Program-made: the position numbers and the translations under genes
Source: Deltaproteobacteria bacterium
Lineage (GTDB): Bacteria > Desulfobacterota > GWC2-55-46 > UBA9637 > GWC2-42-11
Direction: 5' to 3'
Length of the DNA stretch: 40,122 bases
Assembly (NCBI GenBank): GCA_016234925.1
Contig: JACRNI010000107.1
Coordinates: 1 to 40,122, forward strand
Notes under the pieces: generated by a model
Seen by the model: only the letters and a program-made list of their open reading frames with translations
The model's database searches: none
What the model was told of the DNA's origin: nothing
In this document: positions 5,865-6,742 of the stretch, piece by piece
Position numbering within the stretch: position 1 is the stretch's first letter
Layout of the letters: every line of letters begins with the position of its first letter

Positions 5865-5969
5865 ATGGGTAAAATAACTATGGCACTAACCTTGCGACAG
5901 ACAGACAGACAGACAGACAGACAGACAGACAGACAGACAGACAGACAGACAGATTTAACCATCCTGTAA
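5865..5969 (+). other. Out-of-frame leader reading frame through the tetranucleotide tract
   Basis: ATGs at 5865 and 5880 open a frame beginning MGKITMALTLRQ, followed by repeats of TDRQ, that ends at TAA 5967-5969. The downstream lipoprotein is in the frame two bases over. The distance from ATG 5880 to 6032 is 152 nt, so adding one 4-bp unit or removing two would fuse this start to the lipoprotein signal sequence. No strong ribosome site is visible; coupling to the DUF5618 stop at 5852-5854 is possible. Confidence 0.4.
5896..5953 (+). repeat. Tetranucleotide tract (GACA)14.5
   Basis: 58 bp of uninterrupted GACA repeats, all frames of which lack stop codons on the + strand. Tracts of this unit act as contingency repeats in Haemophilus and Neisseria surface genes. 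Here it lies between a small gene and a lipoprotein, inside an open frame that continues into the lipoprotein signal peptide. Confidence 0.97.
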
Positions 5970-5994
5970 ATATTTTTCACAATAATCACATTCA

Positions 5995-6023
5995 AAAAGG
6001 CAGACCAAAAAGTCTGCCTTTTT
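5995..6023 (+). terminator. Intrinsic-terminator-like hairpin upstream of, or within, the lipoprotein 5' end
   Basis: AAAAGGCAGAC (5995-6005), a 6-base loop and GTCTGCCTTTTT (6012-6023): an 11-12-bp stem followed by a T-run. It ends only 9 bases before the TTG at 6032, so either it terminates the upstream transcript or it is an attenuator read through when translated. In the lipoprotein frame it encodes KGRPKSLPF, a good n-region for the signal peptide. Confidence 0.7.
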
Positions 6024-6031
6024 TATTTGCC

Positions 6032-6742
6032 TTGATTATCTTCATTTCATTAACCGGCTGCATTCCCATACAGCAGTCTGTTGTCAAGCCTACAAATCCA
6101 TACAATCCAATTAAAACTGTTGCTGTTCTTCCAATGGTAAACAATACAAATGATGTTGAGGGTCCTGCGTATGTAAGAAATGAATTTGATAAGAAATTGT
6201 CTGAAAATCATTATTCCAACAAATCATTGAAGGATATTGACCAGTTATTAAAGGACCAGATGGGAATTACCCTTGGCTCGCAGATTGATATGACAACCCC
6301 TCAGAAATTAGGGGAACTTTTAGGTGTGGATGCAGTTATCTATGGGACACTGATAGATTTTGATGTGCAGATAAGCGGTCTTTACAATGTAAAAAAGGTC
6401 AGGGCAAAATTTAAAATGGTTGACACCAAAACAGGCGAGATAATCTGGAGCAGCGGCTGGGGTGTAAAGAGTGAGACAAAAAGTATGGGAGCAGCTGGCG
6501 AGGTATTAGCAAGGGTGGCTGGTGAAATGAACGATGGGGACAAGCAGGAGAAAGAGTATATTCCATGGGTTACTATAGGAAGCGGGGCAAGAGATTCCTT
6601 TACAGATGCATTAGTAGAGGCAGTAGCAGATAAGGTGGTCTCACAGGCATTAAGAGTTCCTTTAATAAGAGAAACAAAAGAGATGATAAAGAGGGTAATG
6701 GGATCTTTGCCCCCGGGACCTGTTCCTTACACAAAGAGGTAA
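6032..6742 (+). CDS. DUF799/GNA1162-type lipoprotein
   Basis: The hydrophobic stretch ending in the lipobox LTGC predicts an outer-membrane or periplasmic lipoprotein. The mature part (KTVAVLPMVNNTNDVEG, then GELLGVDAVIYGTL, then MVDTKTGEIIWSS) fits the DUF799/GNA1162 family, which has a TolB/CsgG-like fold and is often encoded with CsgG-type proteins. The start is uncertain. TTG 6032 gives a signal peptide with no positive charge, and the frame is open upstream to 5873 through the hairpin and the GACA tract. An upstream start would supply the basic n-region KGRPKS. Expression may therefore depend on repeat number. It heads a run of five closely spaced genes. Confidence 0.72.
   Translation: MIIFISLTGCIPIQQSVVKPTNPYNPIKTVAVLPMVNNTNDVEGPAYVRNEFDKKLSENHYSNKSLKDIDQLLKDQMGITLGSQIDMTTPQKLGELLGVDAVIYGTLIDFDVQISGLYNVKKVRAKFKMVDTKTGEIIWSSGWGVKSETKSMGAAGEVLARVAGEMNDGDKQEKEYIPWVTIGSGARDSFTDALVEAVADKVVSQALRVPLIRETKEMIKRVMGSLPPGPVPYTKR

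Follow-up and report, generated by a model that had tools for sequence, protein, structure and literature searches.

A probable phase-variable translated leader with a built-in attenuator ahead of a lipoprotein gene in an uncultured bacterium, and its dispersed relatives

The region preceding the gene for a GNA1162-like lipoprotein in an uncultured member of the Desulfobacterota is probably, judging from sequence comparison, a translated leader that is phase-variable and carries its own attenuator, through which the lipoprotein and the genes following it would be switched. It was analyzed within the window, that is, the whole stretch of 40,122 nucleotides represented by contig JACRNI010000107.1 of assembly GCA_016234925.1, to which all positions below refer; the module and the genes next to it lie on the forward strand. 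The leader is one of 25 copies of a module recognized by its head, three in the host genome and the rest in relatives.

Leader, repeat tract, and terminator

The conserved head (5880–5895) consists of ATG 5880 followed by GCA CTA ACC TTG C, encoding Met-Ala-x-x-Leu, and directly 3′ of the TTGC lies a (GACA)14.5 tract of 58 nt (5896–5953, 100% match in TRF). ATG 5865 is an in-frame alternative to ATG 5880, and the frame shared by the two runs through the tract to a TAA at 5967–5969, 24 nt before the hairpin, which corresponds to an OFF phase. The linker behind the tract (TTTAACC..., 5954–5993), delimited with alignment A1 of seven copies and a frame table, closes two of the three frames before the hairpin: frames 0 and 1 stop within five codons of the tract, and frame 2 crosses the hairpin into the lipoprotein. 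This through-frame, 289 codons from stop to stop (5873–6742), reads ...RFNHPVNIFHNNHIQKGRPKSLPFLFALIIFISLTGC and terminates at 6740–6742. From ATG 5880 to TTG 6032 the distance is 152 nt, and a gain of one repeat unit or a loss of two would join start to lipoprotein. The initial annotation had claimed the passage of both ATGs through the tract to the stop at 5967, the open lipoprotein frame from 5873 via tract and hairpin to LTGC, and the joining by +1 or −2 units; sequence, translations, and coordinates bear these claims out. The tract is neither chance nor background: it is the single GACA tract found by a genome scan of the 2.42-Mb assembly and the only two tetranucleotide tracts in 798 kb of the host genome both lie inside copies of the module.

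Behind the linker stands an intrinsic terminator (5994–6026) that is conserved in relatives. Its hairpin (5994–6023) has a perfect 12-bp stem, AAAAAGGCAGAC/GTCTGCCTTTTT, followed by a U run, and folds with a ΔG of −16.9 kcal/mol (z = −7.1), a stability attained by none of 200 shuffled sequences, so that the terminator-like hairpin originally noted inside the leader is real by these measures. Translated in the frame of the lipoprotein, the terminator sequence encodes K-G-R-P-K-S-L-P-F.

Repeats of other kinds also occur. Within 798 kb of the host genome, 26 seven-base and 7 eight-base tandem arrays are found on many contigs, for example, at 18340–18363 and 24206–24239 of the window, several of them with TTGACCC- or TTTTGAC-like units. 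An octamer, AGGGGTCA, is repeated 4.1 times at 1615–1647 within the ORF 113–1777 (fumarate reductase/succinate dehydrogenase flavoprotein-like) and recurs in genome G059, and the intergenic segments 4363–4541 and 1779–1937 match dozens of places in G001 and G004, as dispersed repeat families between housekeeping genes.

The lipoprotein gene and its neighborhood

Counted from TTG 6032, the lipoprotein ORF (6032–6742) is an intact reading frame of 236 codons that matches PF05643 (E = 9.6e-16; 58.3 bits against a cutoff of 25.9) and carries a lipobox, LTGC, with the Cys codon at 6059–6061. Its nearest homologues, three proteins with 59–61% identity from MAGs labelled Nitrospinota, have an ordinary ribosome-binding site (RBS), an ATG, and a signal peptide of the form MKKNN..LLLFIALIIxxSLxAC. 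At the place where these homologues carry the native start of the signal peptide, the window has the terminator-encoded KGRPKSLPFLF and no start codon. No Shine-Dalgarno (SD) sequence precedes TTG 6032, and a signal peptide counted from this TTG is devoid of a charged n-region; the basic n-region KGRPKS, which had been attributed to the through-frame and not to TTG 6032, is indeed found there by translation. Because there is no other good start, the lipoprotein would be expressed only when joined to the start upstream of the repeats.

Upstream, a DUF5618 gene (5480–5854; PF18498, E = 4e-37) ends 25 nt before the module start and is the probable source of transcription for the module, with which it would be cotranscribed. 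No convincing promoter was found upstream of ATG 5880 in the window copy, and its SD is weak (−3.7 kcal/mol of anti-SD pairing), for which reason translational coupling with the DUF5618 gene, whose stop is at 5854, may be guessed. Downstream lie genes for an exported protein with no Pfam match (6829–7659), a YidD-like protein (7637–8092; PF01809), a TPR/YfiO-like protein (8093–9022; PF13525 and TPR families), and an FAD amine oxidase with a Rieske domain (9023–10960; PF01593 and PF00355). As these four overlap, abut, or follow within 90 nt, they likely form an operon with the lipoprotein gene, on the evidence of gene spacing. In the nearest relatives, the G001 contig ends within the TPR/YidD region, and in G060 the lipoprotein is at another location. 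Farther upstream in the window, ahead of sucC, there is a toxin-antitoxin-like nucleotidyltransferase/HEPN gene pair (2447–3165; PF01909 and PF05168).

A family of module copies

The first copies in relatives were obtained by a DNA search with the window region, which retrieved the linker and terminator together with a tract, and further ones by a head pattern, by a covariance model of linker and terminator (R1), and by patterns of TTGC plus tract. Reversed-pattern controls for the latter gave zero matches in all 395 genomes. Ten copies first detected by the linker-terminator model, which is blind to the tract, carry a tract at the expected place; six lower-scoring matches of this model proved to be look-alike terminators without a tract and were excluded from the count. 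No Rfam family was matched above threshold. The host genome holds, besides the window copy (C160), a copy with AGTC (C128) and a third, detected by pattern, with about 25 TCAG units (C117). Other copies are distributed over the family, order, and class of the host and genome G059, with two (G124 and G244) in other families of the phylum.

In all these copies, the order of elements is a start codon, Ala-x-x-Leu, an array of 2-, 4-, or 5-nt units, a linker that is often TTTAACC-like, and, in nearly all cases, an intrinsic terminator, the most conserved part of the module. The array lies directly or within two bases 3′ of the Leu codon, except in G006:C135, where it has been lost, and in G008:C3, where it begins a few bases later. 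Its units (GACA, TCAT, AGTC/TCAG, CAGC, CAACT, and AG) are swapped at the same position between copies, and the length of none is a multiple of three. GACA and AGTC are, together with AGCC, also array types of Haemophilus influenzae.

The head has the properties of a translation start. The first codon is ATG in 23 copies and GTG in two; the second is Ala (GCA, GCG, or GCT) in all 25 save for one Val; and the Leu codon, which comes two codons later in G004:C7, is TTG in 23, with one CTG and one Ser. Pairing with the anti-SD just 5′ of the start averages −6.6 kcal/mol, compared with −1.9 kcal/mol further upstream (24 copies, P = 3.7e-10). A leader ORF with its start codon ahead of the repeats is thus present in the window, the SD being established by the enrichment over the 24 copies. 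Several copies have a TTGACA-type, sigma-70-like promoter upstream, and others, including that of the window, lie closely behind a small gene. Five copies (G004:C72, G006:C135, G008:C3, G010:C213, and G000:C128) are situated 3–36 nt behind a gene for a small coiled-coil protein (MEERVINILLDIKADIG...), and the G006:C188 copy follows a DUF5618-like gene, as the window copy follows DUF5618 (a similarity judged by eye).

Repeat arrays were also encountered outside the family. The one match on viral contigs, L276 (IMGVR_UViG_3300021255_001199), was rejected as a copy, its GACA tract lying within a phage cytosine methyltransferase-like gene with no module; this gene, apparently split by the array (about 5235–5990, minus strand), is possibly a phase-variable phage methyltransferase. 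Two further scans of viral contigs were empty. In genome G367, GACA arrays (L269, L270, and L271) stand behind another head (AAGGA, a TTG start, and CGC AGA CAG), which may be a second kind of repeat leader, in a distant family.

Reading phase and repeat number across copies

In each of the 16 copies with a script-detected hairpin, one or more frames run through it, and the usual pattern is that one frame crosses it and another stops before it. Dinucleotide-shuffled linkers would be expected to give such openness in 12.7 copies (P = 0.019, the copies not being independent), and frame openness was accordingly dropped as the main evidence for coding. As regards the present phase, the frame of the start codon is open through the hairpin region in six copies (G006:C135, G008:C3, G005:C92, G000:C117, G124, and G244), closed soon after the tract in 16, and intermediate or without a clear hairpin in three. 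This distribution, close to the chance expectation of one third, agrees with a random phase. Copies that bear a tract had at first seemed to be OFF too often, but this excess shrank when three more were included.

In the window, G059, G010 (where the ORF is GNA1162-like too), G006:C135, and G008:C96, the crossing frame leads without interruption into an ORF for a secreted or exported protein that lacks a convincing start of its own, and in G006:C135, which has lost the tract, a single open ORF extends from start to protein. In other copies the crossing frame stops soon after the hairpin, and the gene that follows, where sequence exists, often has its own RBS; what counts in these can only be whether the hairpin is crossed. 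Between copies that are near-identical, repeat number was seen to differ, in comparisons of genomes and loci rather than within one population: the repeats of G043 and G044 measure 57 and 29 nt, with 110/110 downstream bases identical and different gene neighborhoods; the tracts of G004:C35 and G008:C96 measure 24 and 20 nt, a difference of two AG units; and those of G005:C90 and G007:C100 measure 29 and 17 nt, a difference of three units, with 75/76 upstream bases identical.

Proposed mechanism and alternative explanations

For the window, translation is proposed to begin at ATG 5880 (or 5865) and to proceed through the GACA tract. At the present unit number the ribosome would stop at 5967, upstream of the hairpin, which would then form and end transcription near 6026, the lipoprotein frame not being entered. 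Slipped-strand mispairing, which is presumed to occur in the population, would by +1 or −2 units set the frame that crosses the hairpin; the ribosome would then prevent termination, translation would continue in frame into the lipoprotein, whose secretion as a fusion is expected, and the following genes would be expressed. That repeat number acts as a switch of the lipoprotein start, as originally suggested, is supported by the 25-copy family, the SD enrichment, and the start-less ORFs downstream. The further suggestion, that a ribosome crossing the hairpin relieves termination, is favored by the comparative evidence and the parallel in Streptococcus gallolyticus discussed below. Some points speak against the attenuator reading: fusion would give the lipoprotein a long n-region, translation alone does not account for the conserved TTGC at codon 5 or for the fixed spacing, and the window copy has the weak SD and the lack of a convincing upstream promoter described above.

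In an improbable alternative, the head is a sigma-54 promoter (TGGCAC-N5-TTGC, −24/−12), a small RNA gene starts in the tract and ends at the terminator, and the lipoprotein is unrelated. The geometry of such a promoter (GG-N10-GC, TGGCAY, TTGC) is present at 5881–5895 and in most copies; as TGGC[AG]Y-N5-TTGC, the canonical GG-N10-GC spacing is kept in nearly all despite a variable spacer, TTGC is found in 15/17 copies detected by similarity rather than by pattern, and the tract invariably starts next to TTGC or at a distance of one or two bases. However, the GG is automatic because it arises from ATG-Ala, and TGG is preceded exclusively by A or G (ATG/GTG), at a position where sigma-54 promoters prefer a pyrimidine. 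The head is preceded by a strong SD, for which a promoter would have no need; several copies have the TTGACA element upstream instead; G244, with GCT, keeps the Ala at the cost of a weaker box, and G008:C3 does without TTGC; and Rfam offers no match for the supposed RNA. This interpretation, the first re-reading of the locus, was demoted after the ATG/GTG start and the strong SD were found. A second transcript beginning within the tract may nevertheless exist.

It is likewise unlikely that the hairpin does no more than terminate the upstream sucCD-DUF5618 genes, the tract being a neutral microsatellite and the lipoprotein a 5′-truncated remnant, decaying or unexpressed. Such a remnant would be without a start codon or RBS of its own, as is observed, the hairpin would end the upstream operon, and, with an A-rich stem and a U run beside it, a truncated signal peptide can by chance pass for a real one. 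Yet the ORF has kept its 236 codons intact and its 59–61% identity to homologues, the same layout recurs before other intact start-less ORFs for secreted proteins, and the tract is not background, because the sole other tetranucleotide tract in 798 kb sits in a module copy. Least is to be said for a purely translational contingency locus, an interpretation to which we assign little probability. In H. influenzae, surface genes are switched through the reading frame by tetranucleotide arrays that closely follow the start codon (e.g., PMC2651432). By analogy, the repeats would join start and lipoprotein and the hairpin would have no regulatory role; frames and units are as in lic/lgt-type loci, and direct fusion is seen in at least four copies besides that of the window. 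Against this stand the many copies in which the crossing frame stops a little past the hairpin and, where sequence is available, the following gene is often provided with a separate RBS; such copies make sense only if hairpin crossing matters. The rank of the terminator as the most conserved module part is a further objection.

Comparison with known systems

In classical trp/ilv leader attenuators, the position of the ribosome on a leader ORF decides terminator formation. Those systems sense amino acid supply via in-frame codons; in the module, in contrast, the variable would be the frame set by the repeats. The closest parallel to the attenuator reading is provided by the pil1 and pil3 leaders of S. 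gallolyticus, in which the frame of a leader ORF depends on the GCAGA repeats within it (Danne et al. 2014, PMC3894217). The pilus genes are transcribed when ribosomes get as far as a premature terminator, as demonstrated by mutants of the start codon, terminator, and stop. These leaders, made up of an RBS, an ATG, repeats, and a terminator, control surface structures, most cells being in the low state (PMC3894217). The window module is alike in its start, in a repeat within the leader ORF whose unit is not a multiple of three, in an intrinsic terminator behind it, and in frame setting arrival at the hairpin; in the window, this terminator stands behind the repeats and ahead of the gene presumed to be regulated, and one phase stops before it while another crosses. 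The pil leaders, however, occur at two loci of a Gram-positive pathogen, share a single repeat unit, and precede genes that carry an RBS of their own, whereas the module belongs to uncultured groundwater-type bacteria and forms a dispersed family with six repeat units, a Met-Ala-x-x-Leu head, and fusion into secreted proteins. It is therefore proposed that the module would work by the pil1 principle, in another phylum, as a multicopy family with swapped units, and with in-frame fusion to secreted proteins. Literature searches for frame-controlled attenuation returned no second case beyond S. gallolyticus. To our knowledge, the Haemophilus loci are translation-only ON/OFF switches, with no conserved terminator in the leader and no shared dispersed module.

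Implications

A broader reading, which we hold only tentatively, is that the module spreads as a cassette and furnishes new genes with a phase-variable start and an attenuator, its units being swapped and a second, sigma-54-dependent transcript perhaps beginning within the repeats. The native starts of several genes for secreted proteins, cut at the h-region of the signal peptide, may have been replaced in this way. If so, uncultured environmental lineages would possess a family-wide phase-variation system. Phase variation by repeats is known mostly in host-adapted pathogens; here, it would be found in environmental relatives of groundwater Nitrospinota, as the property of a multicopy family, and the transcription of an operon as well as its translation could be under the control of one short module. 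With a common head and terminator and freely swapped units, the family would serve as a natural experiment on which features of such switches are important. Genes controlled in this manner will be missed by annotation, or their starts misplaced, because the start sits out of frame beyond the repeats.
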